Assembly (NCBI RefSeq): GCF_019331695.1
Contig: NZ_JAHBBI010000004.1
Location: 124,001-188,000, forward strand
Source of the DNA: Bifidobacterium pluvialisilvae
GTDB taxonomy: Bacteria > Actinomycetota > Actinomycetes > Actinomycetales > Bifidobacteriaceae
Reading direction: 5' to 3'
DNA length: 64,000 bases
Shown here: positions 1 through 7,644 of the stretch, piece after piece
How positions within the stretch are numbered: position 1 is the stretch's first letter
Layout: the number at the start of each line of letters is the position of its first letter
Notes under the pieces: model-generated
What the model was told of the DNA's origin: nothing
Seen by the model: only the letters and a program-made list of their open reading frames with translations
Databases searched by the model: none
Made by a program: the position numbers and the translations under genes

Positions 1-641
1 CGCTGAGCGAGTGCAAGGTCGCGTTCATCACCTCCGGCGGCATCCACAAGAAGGACCAGACGCCGTTCAACACCGCCGGCGACTGGAGCTACCGCGAGAT
101 CCCGAGCGACACCCCGTCCGACCAGCTCATGGTCACCCACGGCGGCTTCGACAACTCCGACATCAACAAGGACGTCAACGCCATGCTGCCCATCGACCGC
201 CTGCGCGAACTCGTCAAGGAAGGCTTCATCGGCTCGCTCGTGCCCACCTTCTTCGGCTTCATGGGCGGCGGCGGCAACGTCGACAAGTTCGAGCACGTCA
301 CCGGCCCCGAGATTGCCAAGAAGCTCAAGGCCGAAGGCGCCGACATCGTGCTCGCCACCGGCGGCTGCGGCACCTGCCACCGCTCCTGCACACTGGTGCT
401 GCGCTGCTGCGAGGCCGCGGGCATGAGCACCTGCATCATCGCCGCCCTCCCGCCGATCGCCCGCCAGCAGGGCGCGCCGCGCATCACCGCGCCGCTCGTG
501 CCGATCGGGTCCAACGCCGGCGAGCCGAACAACCCGACCATGCAGATGGGCATCCTCAAGGACACCCTCAACGCCATGGAGGAGTTCGACCACTTCGGCC
601 AGATGAAGGCGCTGCCGTACGAATACCGTCACAACGTCTGA
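1..641 (+). CDS. prdB: D-proline reductase PrdB-like subunit, Cys variant (5' truncated by window edge)
   Basis: The gene enters from the left edge, reads in frame from base 3 and ends at TGA 639-641; about 212 residues are visible. The protein resembles the PrdB subunit of D-proline reductase, which reductively opens D-proline to 5-aminovalerate in Stickland fermentation. Family marks seen are VTHGGFDNSDINKDVN, PIDRLRELVKEGFIGS, FMGGGGN, GPEIAKKLK, GTCHRS and AGEPNNPTMQMGI. The catalytic selenocysteine of clostridial PrdB falls at codon 366-368, which here is TGC (Cys) in the context GGCGTCHRS, so no Sec machinery is needed. The PrdA proprotein subunit would be expected upstream, outside the window. 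A TetR gene and a proline racemase follow on the same strand. The alternative is another member of the glycine/betaine/sarcosine/proline reductase B family; the downstream racemase favours proline. Confidence 0.85.
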   Translation, partial: LSECKVAFITSGGIHKKDQTPFNTAGDWSYREIPSDTPSDQLMVTHGGFDNSDINKDVNAMLPIDRLRELVKEGFIGSLVPTFFGFMGGGGNVDKFEHVTGPEIAKKLKAEGADIVLATGGCGTCHRSCTLVLRCCEAAGMSTCIIAALPPIARQQGAPRITAPLVPIGSNAGEPNNPTMQMGILKDTLNAMEEFDHFGQMKALPYEYRHNV

Positions 642-849: not shown

Positions 850-1428
850 ATGGCACGAGACGCACGAGGCAGCATCATCGACGCTTCCTGGGACCTTTTC
901 AAGGAAAAAGGCTACGAGAAGACCACGATTGATGACATCATCGCCAAGGCGGGCATCGCCAAAGGCACGTTCTACCATCATTTCCAAGGCAAATCGGCGC
1001 TTCTGGGAACGCTGAGCGACGTGTTCGACGAAAAATACCGCGAGATGGACGCCGAACTCGACCCCGACGGGTCGGTGGTCGAGCAGATTCCCTATCTCAA
1101 CGTGCAGATGTTCGGCTGGATCGAACAGCATGTGCCGGTCGAGCTGCTCAGCGCCCAGCTGGCGTCGCAGCTCAACGCGCGTGGAGACCGGTCACTGGTG
1201 AATCAGGACCGCTTCTACTTCGCCATCCATCGCAGGCTCTTCGCCCGCGGACAGGACCAGGGCGAAATCACACGGGACTATTCCACGCATGACATTGTCC
1301 GCCTGTATGCGATGGCGGAACGATCGATGCTGTACGACTGGTGCCTGCATCAGGGGTCGCAGCCGCTGGTGGGGGAGCCCACCAGAATCGTCGCCGAGGT
1401 GCTCAACCGCTTCGTGCGGCACCTGTAG
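850..1428 (+). CDS. TetR/AcrR-family transcriptional regulator
   Basis: The 192-residue protein has an N-terminal TetR helix-turn-helix: residues 8-50 read IIDASWDLFKEKGY, TTIDDIIAKAGIAKGTFYHHF, then a basic turn into the ligand-binding domain. The rest is helical, varied in sequence, and gives no ligand. The start is ATG 850, with a purine-rich stretch (GAAAGGCGGGA) upstream. It sits between prdB and the proline racemase on the same strand, so it is the natural candidate for a local regulator sensing proline, hydroxyproline or a product. This is inferred from position only. A possible -10 (TATGAT, 784-789) and an ACGTAACGG motif (802-810) lie upstream; related motifs recur near hypE. Confidence 0.9.
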   Translation: MARDARGSIIDASWDLFKEKGYEKTTIDDIIAKAGIAKGTFYHHFQGKSALLGTLSDVFDEKYREMDAELDPDGSVVEQIPYLNVQMFGWIEQHVPVELLSAQLASQLNARGDRSLVNQDRFYFAIHRRLFARGQDQGEITRDYSTHDIVRLYAMAERSMLYDWCLHQGSQPLVGEPTRIVAEVLNRFVRHL

Positions 1429-1537: not shown

Positions 1538-2668
1538 ATGAACGTTGCCGGCATGATACAGGTTCCGTCCAATTTCCACACCAAAACGCTGGCGGCGGCG
1601 AAGGCCGTGCTCGACGACGCGATGTTCGCCTCCAGCCCGCGGCTGACCACCGTGGAATCACACACGCAGGGCGAGCCCACGCGCATCCTCGTCGGCGGGC
1701 TCTCCGCGCTCGACGCCGAGCCGAGCGCCATCGCCGTGCGCGACAAGCTCATCAACGAATACGACGGCATCCGCAAGATCCTCATGCTGGAGCCGCGCGG
1801 CCACCGCGACATGTTCGGCGCCATCCTCTTCAAACCCACCCGTTCCGACGCCGACCTCGGCGCCGTGTTCACCGACTCGGGCGGCTATCTCAACATGTGC
1901 GGCCACGGTTCCATCGGCGTCTCCACGTTCGCCGTCGAATCCGGCCTCGTGACCGGGAAGTATCCGTCGTTCGCCGCCATCGCCGACGACGACATCGACG
2001 TGCGTCTCGACACCCCGGCAGGACTCATCACCGTCACCGTCCACGTGCGCGGCCACCAGGTCGAGAACGCCACGCTCACCAACGTGCCCGCGTTCGTCGC
2101 CATGGACGACGTGACCATCCACGTGGACGAGCCGGGCATCCCCGTACGGGACGTCAAAGCCACCATTTCGTTCGGCGGCAGCTTCTTCGCGCTGGTGGAC
2201 TTCGATTCGCTCGGCCTCGGCTACGACATCGAATCCTCGCACTCGCAGGAGATCGCCGACATTGGCATGGCCGTCCTGCGTGCCGCACGCGAACAGCTCG
2301 ACGTACGCCATCCGCTCGTGGACATCAAGGGCGTCGATCTGGTGGAATTCGGCCAGTACGACGAATCCACCGGGCACTACCGCAACGGCGTCGTCTTCGG
2401 CGGCAGGCAGGTCGACCGCTCCCCATGCGGCACCGGCACCAGCGCCAAGCTCGCCGCGCTCGTGGCACATGGGAAGATGGACATCGGCGAGACCCGCGTG
2501 TTCGAGTCGATCACCGGGTCGAAGTTCCTCGGGTGCCCGGCCTCGCGCACCACGGTCGCCGGCCATGACGCCATCATCCCGCAGATCACCGGCAAGGCGT
2601 TCATCACTGGCGTCAGCACCTTCGAACTCGACTCCACCGACATCTATCCCGAGGGATTCCTCGTGTGA
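1538..2668 (+). CDS. prdF: Proline racemase family enzyme (PrdF-like)
   Basis: This is a 376-residue PF05544 protein. Proline racemase interconverts L- and D-proline using two cysteines as acid and base. Both are present: Cys121 in NMCGHGSIG and Cys297 in DRSPCGTGTSAK. Other family marks are SHTQGEPTRI near residue 41 and VESITGSKFLG-type sequence near the C-terminus. The N-terminus is about 28 residues longer than in typical racemases. ATG 1538 was chosen because GAGGAG (1525-1530) lies 7 bases upstream; ATG 1535 is the alternative. The paired Cys excludes the 3-hydroxyproline dehydratase relatives, but 4-hydroxyproline 2-epimerase cannot be excluded from motifs. Lying between prdB and hypD, a role in supplying D-proline to the reductase is the simplest reading. 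Confidence 0.88.
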   Translation: MNVAGMIQVPSNFHTKTLAAAKAVLDDAMFASSPRLTTVESHTQGEPTRILVGGLSALDAEPSAIAVRDKLINEYDGIRKILMLEPRGHRDMFGAILFKPTRSDADLGAVFTDSGGYLNMCGHGSIGVSTFAVESGLVTGKYPSFAAIADDDIDVRLDTPAGLITVTVHVRGHQVENATLTNVPAFVAMDDVTIHVDEPGIPVRDVKATISFGGSFFALVDFDSLGLGYDIESSHSQEIADIGMAVLRAAREQLDVRHPLVDIKGVDLVEFGQYDESTGHYRNGVVFGGRQVDRSPCGTGTSAKLAALVAHGKMDIGETRVFESITGSKFLGCPASRTTVAGHDAIIPQITGKAFITGVSTFELDSTDIYPEGFLV

Positions 2669-3953: not shown

Positions 3954-6380
3954 TCACAGGGTCTGCTCGGTGCGGGCGATGATCTCGTCCTGCAGGGCCT
4001 TGTCCAGGTTGTTGAAGTAGTCGGAGTAGCCGGCCACGCGGACGATGAGGTCCTTGTACTGGTCCGGGTGCTTCTGCGCGTCGATCAGCGTGGCGCGGTC
4101 GATCACGTTGAACTGGATGTGGTGGCCGTCCATCGCGAAGTAGCTGCGGATCAGGGCGCTCATGCCGAGGATGCCCTTCTTGCCGGCCACGACCTGCGGC
4201 GTGAACTTCTGGTTGAGCAGCGCGCCGCCGGTCTTGAGCTGGTCCATCTTCGCGGCGGAACGGATTACGGCGGTCGGGCCGTTGATGTCCGCGCCCTTCT
4301 CTGGGGCGATGCCGTCGGGCAGCGCGATGTGCTCGTGGCGGCCGTTCGGGGAGGCGATCATCGTCTGGCCGAAGTACACGTGGCAGGTGGTCGGCAGGAA
4401 CTCCACGATGGTCTTGGAGCCCTTCGGGGTCGGGCGGCCGGCCACGATCTTCTGCAGGGACTCGGAGACCTCGCGCAGCACGTCGTCGGCGTAGTCGTCG
4501 TCGTTGCCGTACTTCGGGGTGTGGTTGAACACCTGGTCGAACATGTCGTCGTAGCCCTTGAAGTCGGCCTCGCAGGCGGCGAGCACGTCGTCCATCGAGA
4601 AGCGCTTGTCCTCGAAGACCTGCTTCTTGAACACGGTGAGCGAGTCGGTGACGGTGCCCATGCCCACGCACTGGATGTAGCTCGTGTTGTAGCGGGCGCC
4701 GCCGCAGTTGTAGTCCTTGGCACGGGCGATGCAGTCGTCGGTGATCACCGAGAGCAGCGGCACGGGCAGCGTGTCCATGAACAGACGCTCGATGAGATTG
4801 TTGCCGGCCACCTTGACGTCGGTGACGTACTTGAGCTCCTTCTCGAACGCGGCGTACAGCTCATCGAAGCTCTTGAAGTCGCGCGGGTCTCCGCAGTCGA
4901 TGCCGATCTTCTTGTTCGTGTAGTGGTCGTAGCCTCGGTACATCACCAGCTCGAGCACCTTCGGCACGTTGAGGTAGCCGGTGAGCACGTAGGCCTCCTT
5001 GCCGGCGGTGCCGGTCTCCACGCATCCGGAGGCGATGCCGGACTCGCGGGCGTCGTCAAGGGACTTGCCCATGTTCAGCAGCTCCTGGATGATGGCGTCG
5101 GAGTTGTAGAACGCCGGCTGGCCCCAGCCCTTGCGGCTGATCTTCACGGCCTCGTGCAGGAAGTGCTCCGGGGTCTTGCGGCTGATCTGCACGTTCGAGC
5201 TCGGCTGCAGCAGCTTCATCTCGTCCATGACCTCGAGGATCAGGTAGCTCACGTCGCTCACGCCGCAGGTGCCGTCCGGACGCAGCGCACCGGTGTTGAA
5301 GTTGCAGAAGTCGGTGTAGGTGGCGGATTCCTTCAGCGTGATGCCCACCTTCGGCGGGGCCGGCTGGTTGTTGAACTTCACCCACAGGCACTCGAGGTAT
5401 TCGCGGGCCTGCTCGCGGGTGAGTGTGCCGGCGGCCACCTCGCGGTTGTAGAAGGGCTCGAGGTGCTGGTCGAACTTGCCGGGGGAGTAGGCGTCCCAGT
5501 TGTTCATTTCCGAGGTGACGCCGATGTGGGTGAACCAGTACATCTGAATCGCCTCGCGGAACGTGCGCGGCGCGTGGGCCGGCACCCGATCGCACACTTC
5601 GGCGAGCTGCTCAAGCTCCTCACGGCGCACCGGGTCGTCACACTGCTCGGCCTTTTCACGGGCCAGGGCGGCGTAGCGCTGGCCGAGGATGATCATGCCC
5701 TCGCACACCAGATGCATGGCCTGAAGCTCGGCCTCCTTGTGCTCGGCCTCCATGTCGTTGTTGTAGTCGATCGCGGCGAGTTCGTCGTCGATGCGCTTCA
5801 TGAAGTCCGCGTAGCCGGACTTGTAGATTTTGCCGTCGGCCACGGTGTGGCCCGGGCCGCGCTGGGCCATGAACTCGGTGTACATGCCGCCTTCGAACAG
5901 CAGGTGCCACTCCTCGGGTAGCATATTCATCATCTTGGTCATGGAGGCACGCTCCTGCCAGAACGGGATGATGACGTCGCGCTGAATCTCCTTCTGCTTC
6001 TCGGTCACGGAGAAGGAGACGTGCGCGCGGTTGTTCATGTTGTCGAAATCCTCAAGGCTGTGGCAGCACAGCTCCGGGAACGTCGGCGCGGACTGCGGGC
6101 CCACGCCCTTCTCGCCGACGATCAGCTCGTCGTCGCCCAGGTACAGCGTGCGCTTCTCCATGAGCGTCTTGAAGAAGATGCCGCGCAGCACCGGCGTGGG
6201 CACCTTGCCCTCGTACTGTTTGTAGACCTCGGTCTCGATGAGCGCACGCTCGAGCGAGATGCTCGGATGCGTGGTCTCGCTCAGCTCGCGCAGACGCTTG
6301 GTGCGCATGGTGGAGCCGCGCTTCTCGTCCCAGTTGATGCCGGTGTCGACGCCGGTCGGCGTGATGGTTGCGGTGGTCAT
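3954..6380 (-). CDS. hypD: Glycyl radical enzyme, trans-4-hydroxy-L-proline dehydratase (HypD-type)
   Basis: This 808-residue glycyl radical enzyme is predicted to dehydrate trans-4-hydroxy-L-proline to pyrroline-5-carboxylate. The active-site cysteine is Cys453 in SGCVETG, with Glu455 two residues on; pyruvate formate-lyases have a Cys-Cys pair instead. The radical glycine is Gly784 in RVAGYSDYFNN, 24 residues from the end. Against the characterised Clostridioides difficile HypD as I recall it (Cys434, Glu436, Tyr450, Gly765), all four sites align with a constant offset of 19 (Cys453, Glu455, Tyr469, Gly784). The text NNQPAPPKVGITLKES and WGQPAFYN also fits. The start ATG 6380 follows AAAGGATC. 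The activase gene lies upstream on the same strand, and the proline racemase and PrdB genes are nearby. Automatic annotation is likely to call it formate acetyltransferase or glycerol dehydratase. Confidence 0.9.
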   Translation of the reverse strand: MTTATITPTGVDTGINWDEKRGSTMRTKRLRELSETTHPSISLERALIETEVYKQYEGKVPTPVLRGIFFKTLMEKRTLYLGDDELIVGEKGVGPQSAPTFPELCCHSLEDFDNMNNRAHVSFSVTEKQKEIQRDVIIPFWQERASMTKMMNMLPEEWHLLFEGGMYTEFMAQRGPGHTVADGKIYKSGYADFMKRIDDELAAIDYNNDMEAEHKEAELQAMHLVCEGMIILGQRYAALAREKAEQCDDPVRREELEQLAEVCDRVPAHAPRTFREAIQMYWFTHIGVTSEMNNWDAYSPGKFDQHLEPFYNREVAAGTLTREQAREYLECLWVKFNNQPAPPKVGITLKESATYTDFCNFNTGALRPDGTCGVSDVSYLILEVMDEMKLLQPSSNVQISRKTPEHFLHEAVKISRKGWGQPAFYNSDAIIQELLNMGKSLDDARESGIASGCVETGTAGKEAYVLTGYLNVPKVLELVMYRGYDHYTNKKIGIDCGDPRDFKSFDELYAAFEKELKYVTDVKVAGNNLIERLFMDTLPVPLLSVITDDCIARAKDYNCGGARYNTSYIQCVGMGTVTDSLTVFKKQVFEDKRFSMDDVLAACEADFKGYDDMFDQVFNHTPKYGNDDDYADDVLREVSESLQKIVAGRPTPKGSKTIVEFLPTTCHVYFGQTMIASPNGRHEHIALPDGIAPEKGADINGPTAVIRSAAKMDQLKTGGALLNQKFTPQVVAGKKGILGMSALIRSYFAMDGHHIQFNVIDRATLIDAQKHPDQYKDLIVRVAGYSDYFNNLDKALQDEIIARTEQTL

Positions 6381-6861: not shown

Positions 6862-7644
6862 TCAGCCGCCGATGGTCACGTTGTCGTAGAACTTCTCGAT
6901 TTCGGTCTTGACCTCGTTCATCTGCTCGTCCGAAGGCACCTCGAAGTAGATGGCCTTGCGGCCGAGCTTGGCGTACTTGTCCATGCCGTACTTGTGGTAG
7001 GGGAGGATGTCCACCTGCTCGACGGGGATGTGGTTGGCGCGCAGCCACAGCATGGTGCGTTCGATCATGTCCTTGTCGGTGTTGATGCCGGGCAGCATGA
7101 TGAGGCGGAGGAAGATGCGGGCGTTGTTCTCGGCGAGGATCTTGAGGTTCTTCAATACGAGATGGTTCGAGCCGCCGGTGTAACGCTTGTGCAGCTCGTC
7201 GTCGATGAATTTGAGGTCATAGAGGAAGAAGTCGGCGTAGTCGCACATCTCCTCGACGGTCTTCGACGCGGCGACGCCGCATGTGTCGATGCCGATGCTG
7301 ATCTCCTGCTCGTCGAGGCGGCGCACGAGCTCCATGATGTAGTCGTGGTCCATGGCCAGCACCTCGCCGCCGGAGAGCGTGACGCCGCCGCCGGACTGGT
7401 CGTAGATCATATGGTCCTTGAGCACGTCCTTGACGAGTTCGTCGATGGTGTACTGCTGGCCGACGTGCTGGACCTTGCCGTCCTTGTCGGTCATGATCTC
7501 GGGCGTGAACAGCTGGCTTTCGGGGTTGTGACACCATTCGCAGCGCAGCGGGCATCCCTTGAAGAAGATGGTGGTGCGCACGCCAGGCCCGTCGTGTGTG
7601 GAGAAGTGCTGGATGTTGAATACGTATGGTGTCCTGCCTGACAT
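6862..7644 (-). CDS. hypE: Glycyl radical enzyme activase (radical SAM), HypE-type
   Basis: A 260-residue radical SAM protein that would put the glycyl radical on HypD. The iron-sulfur motif CX3CX2C is Cys31, Cys35 and Cys38 in KGCPLRCEWCHNPES, preceded by HDGPGVRTTIFFKG. The SAM-binding LSGGE is at residues 90-94. There are no further cysteines between the cluster motif and SGGE, so the two extra ferredoxin-type clusters found in many non-PflA activases are absent. The start ATG 7644 follows GGGAAGGACGAT. It is transcribed toward hypD, 481 bases upstream of it, and with no other radical enzyme nearby HypD is its likely partner. It would be annotated pflA by default. Confidence 0.88.
   Translation of the reverse strand: MSGRTPYVFNIQHFSTHDGPGVRTTIFFKGCPLRCEWCHNPESQLFTPEIMTDKDGKVQHVGQQYTIDELVKDVLKDHMIYDQSGGGVTLSGGEVLAMDHDYIMELVRRLDEQEISIGIDTCGVAASKTVEEMCDYADFFLYDLKFIDDELHKRYTGGSNHLVLKNLKILAENNARIFLRLIMLPGINTDKDMIERTMLWLRANHIPVEQVDILPYHKYGMDKYAKLGRKAIYFEVPSDEQMNEVKTEIEKFYDNVTIGG

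Follow-up and report, generated by a model that had tools for sequence, protein, structure and literature searches.

The TGC codon at positions 366-368 of the window, by which we mean the whole 64,000-nucleotide stretch of Bifidobacterium pluvialisilvae DNA analysed here (G000:C16:124001-188000), probably encodes the cysteine at the catalytic position of a D-proline reductase that is independent of selenium, in a cluster that would encode a pathway of hydroxyproline and proline reduction. The codon is in the PrdB frame (3-641), in the context GGC-TGC-GGC-ACC-TGC-CAC-CGC (G-C-G-T-C-H-R), and the encoded cysteine sits in G-G-C-G-T-C-H-R. Only the last 212 codons of prdB fall inside the window, the gene start being 96 bases before it; the full gene (L001 13904-14641, or G000:C16:123904-124641) encodes 245 aa, of which the codon at 366-368 specifies Cys155. 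The protein matches the curated PrdB equivalog TIGR04483 over positions 1-238 of 238 with 458 bits (cut-off 300). Membership of the GrdB family (PF07355), which has a UxxC motif and distant homology to the C-terminal part of PrdB, was considered and rejected, the GrdB-type models (glycine, sarcosine and betaine reductase) giving about 95 bits or less against cut-offs of 602-800.

At the active site, where a Sec-type PrdB has an in-frame TGA, we observe TGC in an open frame. Cys155 aligns exactly, by alignment and codon check, with the in-frame TGA of five Sec-type PrdBs (plasmid records of Ligilactobacillus salivarius, Enterococcus raffinosus, Acetoanaerobium noterae, Terrisporobacter petrolearius and Peptoclostridium acidaminophilum) inside an invariant block, and together with Cys158 it places the redox-active CxxC of PrdB at its conserved position; both columns are invariant, Cys158 across 82 Cys-type and 21 Sec-type rows. 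A misplaced catalytic position was rejected on the invariance of the Cys155 column. The sequence-only reading had proposed TGC, not TGA, at the selenocysteine position of PrdB, and sequence, alignment and codon check all agree with it. A sequencing error at the codon was also rejected, since TGC or TGT, with an open frame, is found in 13/13 PrdB-bearing Bifidobacteriaceae genomes. The prd genes match the ones carried by Bifidobacterium tissieri, primatium, catulorum, vansinderenii, callimiconis and simiarum and their group, in which PrdB is 98-100% identical. An AlphaFold model of PrdB (mean pLDDT 86) places Cys155 between a strand (148-152) and a helix (156-171), a usual spot for a redox residue, and this predicted placement is no more than consistent with a catalytic role. 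When the model was compared with PDB folds, nothing matched significantly (best E 0.015, TM under 0.5), and searches by sequence found no solved relative for either PrdB or PrdA.

The source genome (a 2.66 Mb draft in 21 contigs, 99.1% complete) yielded no match to SelA; the best score for SelB was 190 bits (cut-off 242), in an EF-Tu-sized frame of 421 aa, and the best for SelD was 23 bits (cut-off 125). The best tRNA-Sec candidate in this genome, C12:316602, scored 46 bits where the cut-off is 47, and was rejected, ARAGORN calling it a tRNA-Ser (TGA). A hidden Sec-type copy of PrdB was likewise rejected, the source genome holding a single PrdB. With no Sec machinery above cut-off and no second PrdB, the enzyme is therefore producible without selenium, and the view that the Prd enzyme of this genome needs no selenocysteine is supported. 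The earlier proposal of a selenium-independent Prd enzyme is thereby sustained: the Cys codon is fixed in the clade, the search for selA, selB, selD and tRNA-Sec returned nothing above cut-off, and neither of the contrary findings that the proposal had named (a catalytic position elsewhere, or Sec machinery together with a second Sec-type PrdB) was encountered.

Upstream of prdB are amino-acid ABC transporter genes, a prdC-like gene, prdA and a 62-aa CBO2463-domain gene; downstream are a TetR regulator and a proline racemase-family gene, with hypD and a short activase on the opposite strand (Table 1). PrdA scores 874 bits against TIGR04480 (cut-off 700) and the 62-aa protein 81 bits against NF041553 (cut-off 50), while the PrdC-like protein, at 398 bits, is below the TIGR04481 cut-off of 490, the first ~70 model positions being missing. 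Cys420 of PrdA, in an A-[TA]-C-I-G-P motif kept in 100/105 aligned rows, is what we take to be the pyruvoyl site, in line with PrdA/GrdE processing, for which PMC10298544 names the original papers. The TetR gene is kept, by synteny, in all bifidobacterial prd loci. The racemase-family protein has both catalytic cysteines (NMCGHG and SPCGTG) and its best solved relative is the proline racemase 7pb3; its score against the NCBIfam proline racemase equivalog is 349 bits, under the cut-off of 556. HypD scores 1289 bits against its model (cut-off 1100), with 6vxc as the best PDB match, at full length. The activase has its best match in NF043069 at 302 bits, under the cut-off of 425, and is above the cut-off of TIGR02494; at ~260 aa, it is apparently without the ferredoxin-like iron-sulphur insert found in clostridial HypE. 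PrdD and PrdE, which are usual beside prdAB in clostridial clusters and not known to be essential, were not among the probe matches in the bifidobacterial prd loci. ProC is present in the source genome, as is a second glycyl radical enzyme (G000:C18:171521-173875), which we assign to another family because its 522 bits are well under the HypD cut-off.

Table 1. Features of the prd and hyp genes within the window
Feature	Position	Strand	Basis
3' part of prdB, D-proline reductase subunit of the cysteine type	1..641	+	TIGR04483
TGC codon, Cys155, selenocysteine position	366..368	+	column invariantly Cys or TGA in all rows
TGC codon, Cys158, second residue of CxxC (UxxC) motif	375..377	+	alignment column
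TetR-family regulator between prdB and racemase gene	850..1428	+	PF00440; synteny
proline racemase-family gene, putative PrdF role (L- to D-proline)	1538..2668	+	PF05544, 325 bits
hypD, trans-4-hydroxy-L-proline dehydratase, glycyl radical enzyme	3954..6380	-	NF043068
glycyl-radical activating enzyme beside hypD, putative HypE role, short form	6862..7644	-	NF043069; TIGR02494

Among 189 Bifidobacteriaceae genomes, PrdB is present in 13, including 8/9 of the genus group, in each case as a single gene of the Cys type with no internal stops. The genomes with HypD above cut-off are exactly these 13, and hypD is always on one contig with prdB at gaps of 2.0-9.5 kb; the other 176 have neither protein, and the genus member without PrdB (G003) is also without HypD (Fisher p 2e-20, genomes being counted as independent and their relatedness ignored). 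Given this co-occurrence and the presence of ProC, the best-supported pathway is therefore that from hydroxyproline through proline to 5-aminovalerate. In the route that we propose, HypD would dehydrate trans-4-hydroxy-L-proline to pyrroline-5-carboxylate, ProC would convert this to L-proline, and the racemase would supply D-proline, the ring of which would be cleaved reductively to 5-aminovalerate by PrdA, with a pyruvoyl group from Cys420, and PrdB, in which Cys155 and Cys158 would stand in for the Sec/Cys pair. Electrons would be delivered through PrdC, and proline and collagen-derived hydroxyproline may in this way serve as an electron sink for a host without selenium machinery. We infer the catalytic activity, the substrate and the electron flow of this route, and likewise the Sec ancestry of the Cys clade considered below. 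A prd cluster of bifidobacterial layout, TetR gene included, is also seen in an Acidipropionibacterium MAG (L058 6567-13000), inside the bifidobacterial clade, and represents either a lateral transfer or a mis-binned contig.

A first PrdB tree, built on 78 Cys rows, 21 TGA rows and an outgroup of 8 distant TGA rows, unites the Cys rows in a single clade (SH-aLRT 99), within which the bifidobacteria and the single Acidipropionibacterium MAG form one clade of their own (97). A second tree, to which rows from an even sample of Clostridia (see below) were added and from which two long branches were dropped, separates 80 Cys from 35 TGA rows with support of 100, and mapping Sec and Cys upon it gives one change and a single Cys clade. 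PrdA of Cys and Sec clusters splits likewise (72 vs 19, support 100). The single Cys clade in PrdB and the same split in PrdA thus point to an old, co-inherited PrdA/PrdB subfamily and not to a recent codon swap. The residues are in keeping with the trees: 23 PrdB columns, fixed or nearly fixed, separate the two clades, among them Cys37 (82/82 Cys-type rows, with Met in 20/21 Sec-type rows), Gly153 (Ala in the Sec type), Ser175 and Ser203. The idea of a recent replacement of one codon accordingly fails on both the trees and these columns. The PrdC site differs as well, reading CTDC or CSDC in Cys clusters and CxxU, with TGA at the last motif position, in six PrdCs of Sec clusters; Megasphaera cerevisiae (L094) has neighbouring clusters with this matched difference, CxxC vs CxxU. 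The TGA-bearing outgroups would favour Sec as the ancestral state. The root between the two types is not firm, because a third PrdB of Mogibacterium timidum (L172), a TGA gene with some Cys-clade residues (Cys37), falls on the Cys side of the first tree with a very long branch.

A GTDB-wide scan returned 471 PrdB relatives, and the codon was read in the best 80; all of these have TGC or TGT there, and most come from Bacillota (Clostridium tyrobutyricum, Lachnospiraceae, Selenomonas, Megasphaera, Sporolactobacillus and Peptostreptococcus among them). This result contradicts the idea of a Cys form confined to this genome or to non-clostridia. The statement in the sequence-only reading that clostridial PrdB uses Sec is no more than half true, because the Cys type too is borne by many clostridia. 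The 49 genomes behind the Cys-type loci were surveyed for SelA and TGA-type PrdB: 14 (about 30%) also hold a TGA-type PrdB, SelA being present in 14/14, and in three loci (L094, L104, L127) the TGA PrdB is 6-9 kb away. Of the 35 Cys-only genomes, 34 are without convincing SelA, the weak hits in G599 and G611 (56-65 bits) being read, in our judgement, as other PLP enzymes. The suggestion that the Cys type could occur in hosts without Sec machinery is borne out by these genomes, and the type has also entered Actinomycetota; lack of selenium is, given the roughly 30% with Sec machinery and a Sec-type PrdB, not its sole setting. The surveyed loci having been picked for their resemblance to a Cys query, we added 391 evenly sampled Clostridia genomes, 22 of them with PrdB (8 with both types, 2 with Cys only and 12 with TGA only). 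In this sample the 10 Cys genes score 446 bits or more and the 20 TGA genes 421 bits or less; a single TGA gene (in G701) has further stops and looks broken. The coexistence of both types in 8/10 Cys-bearing Clostridia would accord with a back-up role or with action on a second substrate, and not with plain replacement.

The contents of the clusters bear on this choice. A racemase-family gene is found in the bifidobacterial and in many other Cys-only clusters, and HypD is also found close to the Cys cluster at several Lachnospiraceae loci (four were compared with the HypD model, all being above cut-off). Where both types coexist, the Cys cluster mostly has a 411-aa PrdE/PrdD-like protein and no racemase. 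This protein (L028 4147-5382; L071, L078, L104, L127), which is PrdE-like in its first half and PrdD/PrdA-like in its second, occurs beside Cys-type prdABC mainly where the genome has a Sec-type PrdB too.

One may ask, then, whether the Cys and Sec types are isozymes for a single reaction, the Cys form serving under selenium scarcity and bifidobacteria having taken only the Cys isozyme. Some methanogens have Cys/Sec pairs of formate dehydrogenase and of hydrogenase, with the Cys form employed when selenium is scarce. The coexistence of both types in genomes with SelA, and the CxxC and CxxU PrdCs of the adjacent Megasphaera cerevisiae clusters, speak for such an arrangement; the differing cluster contents, with the 411-aa protein and not a racemase in many coexisting genomes, speak against it, and we regard it as possible but rather doubtful, noting that for bifidobacteria themselves it is compatible with our main reading. 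Alternatively, Cys-type PrdABC may be a paralogous reductase acting on another substrate (e.g. a cyclic amino acid with a hydroxyl or other substituent), in which cysteine is tied to the chemistry and not to lack of selenium. The 14/49 and 8/10 genomes with both types, the loci in which the two stand together, the presence of the 411-aa protein and not of a racemase, and the 23 clade-specific columns, which could reflect an altered substrate, would all suit this explanation. It nevertheless appears unlikely in view of the racemase-family gene of the bifidobacterial and many other Cys-only clusters, the invariable presence beside the bifidobacterial clusters of HypD, the product of which leads to proline, and the scores of PrdA and PrdB far over the D-proline reductase equivalog cut-offs. 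That Sec machinery was overlooked, or that a second Sec-type PrdB lies in a gap of the 21-contig draft, is extremely improbable given the completeness of the assembly, the failure of all four components to reach their cut-offs, the absence of SelA from the 10 named Bifidobacterium genomes surveyed (one 19-bit sub-threshold hit) and the single PrdB in each of 13 genomes.

We therefore return to a selenium-independent D-proline reductase as our preferred reading. The bifidobacterial system resembles the clostridial Sec-type system (TIGR04483; Clostridium sticklandii, C. difficile) in the family of its PrdB and the place of the UxxC/CxxC motif, in a PrdA with a conserved pyruvoyl-forming cysteine region, and in having a PrdC-like and a racemase-family gene nearby. 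It differs in having Cys for Sec (TGG-C-GTC vs TAG-U-GTC, at mostly 54-61% identity), in the 23 clade columns with their extra invariant Cys37, in the CxxC of PrdC, in having no adjoining PrdD or PrdE, and in a host without Sec machinery. The Cys-type PrdBs of Clostridium tyrobutyricum, Sporolactobacillus, Lachnospiraceae and Enterococcus gilvus belong to the same clade at 71-80% identity, with the same codon class and the prdC-prdA-prdB order of the window, but their clusters have other regulators and transporters and adjoin HypD in some cases only; many Clostridia with the Cys type, unlike bifidobacteria, hold a Sec-type PrdB as well. The HypD pathway of C. difficile and other gut Clostridia is alike in having a HypD above cut-off and in leading to proline as electron acceptor, whereas in bifidobacteria, which are actinobacteria, hypD and a cysteine-type Prd cluster share a single locus. 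There is, in our estimation, about an even chance that bifidobacteria have a complete selenium-free branch of Stickland type, running from hydroxyproline through proline to 5-aminovalerate on cysteine alone, its source being an ancient PrdA/PrdB/PrdC subfamily of the cysteine type in which fixed changes at second sites, Cys37 for example, made up for the loss of selenium. Were this so, a cysteine-only branch would show that pyruvoyl-dependent reductive ring cleavage has no chemical need of selenium.

Selenoprotein surveys have listed PrdB as a UxxC selenoprotein and counted its Cys homologues broadly, with 5 in complete genomes (PMC1088965) and 110 in GOS (PMC2398784); these counts probably rest on a wider definition of the family. 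D-proline reductase has been studied as a selenoenzyme, with Sec in its proposed mechanism (PMC10298544). In the openly accessible literature we came upon no description of HypD or proline reductase for bifidobacteria, no characterised Cys-type PrdB and no measured activity of a Cys-type PrdAB. A natural Cys clade in hosts without Sec machinery makes the contribution of selenium directly testable, and it follows from such a clade that proline and hydroxyproline reduction is not predictable from Sec machinery or TGA-bearing genes. Proline and hydroxyproline are nutrients important to C. difficile (PMC9044972), and bifidobacteria are possible competitors for both.

Two further observations concern relatives of these genes elsewhere. 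A plasmid of Paraclostridium bifermentans (CP124691; L029 3600-7648) bears a Cys-type prd cluster, the prdA and prdC frames of which are broken in the record. Actinomycetota outside the order (L016-L027) have distant PrdB-like genes, below the PrdB cut-off, with an in-frame TGA (e.g. in the motif TPG-U-PMCNRAV), and these possibly encode unnamed selenoprotein reductases.
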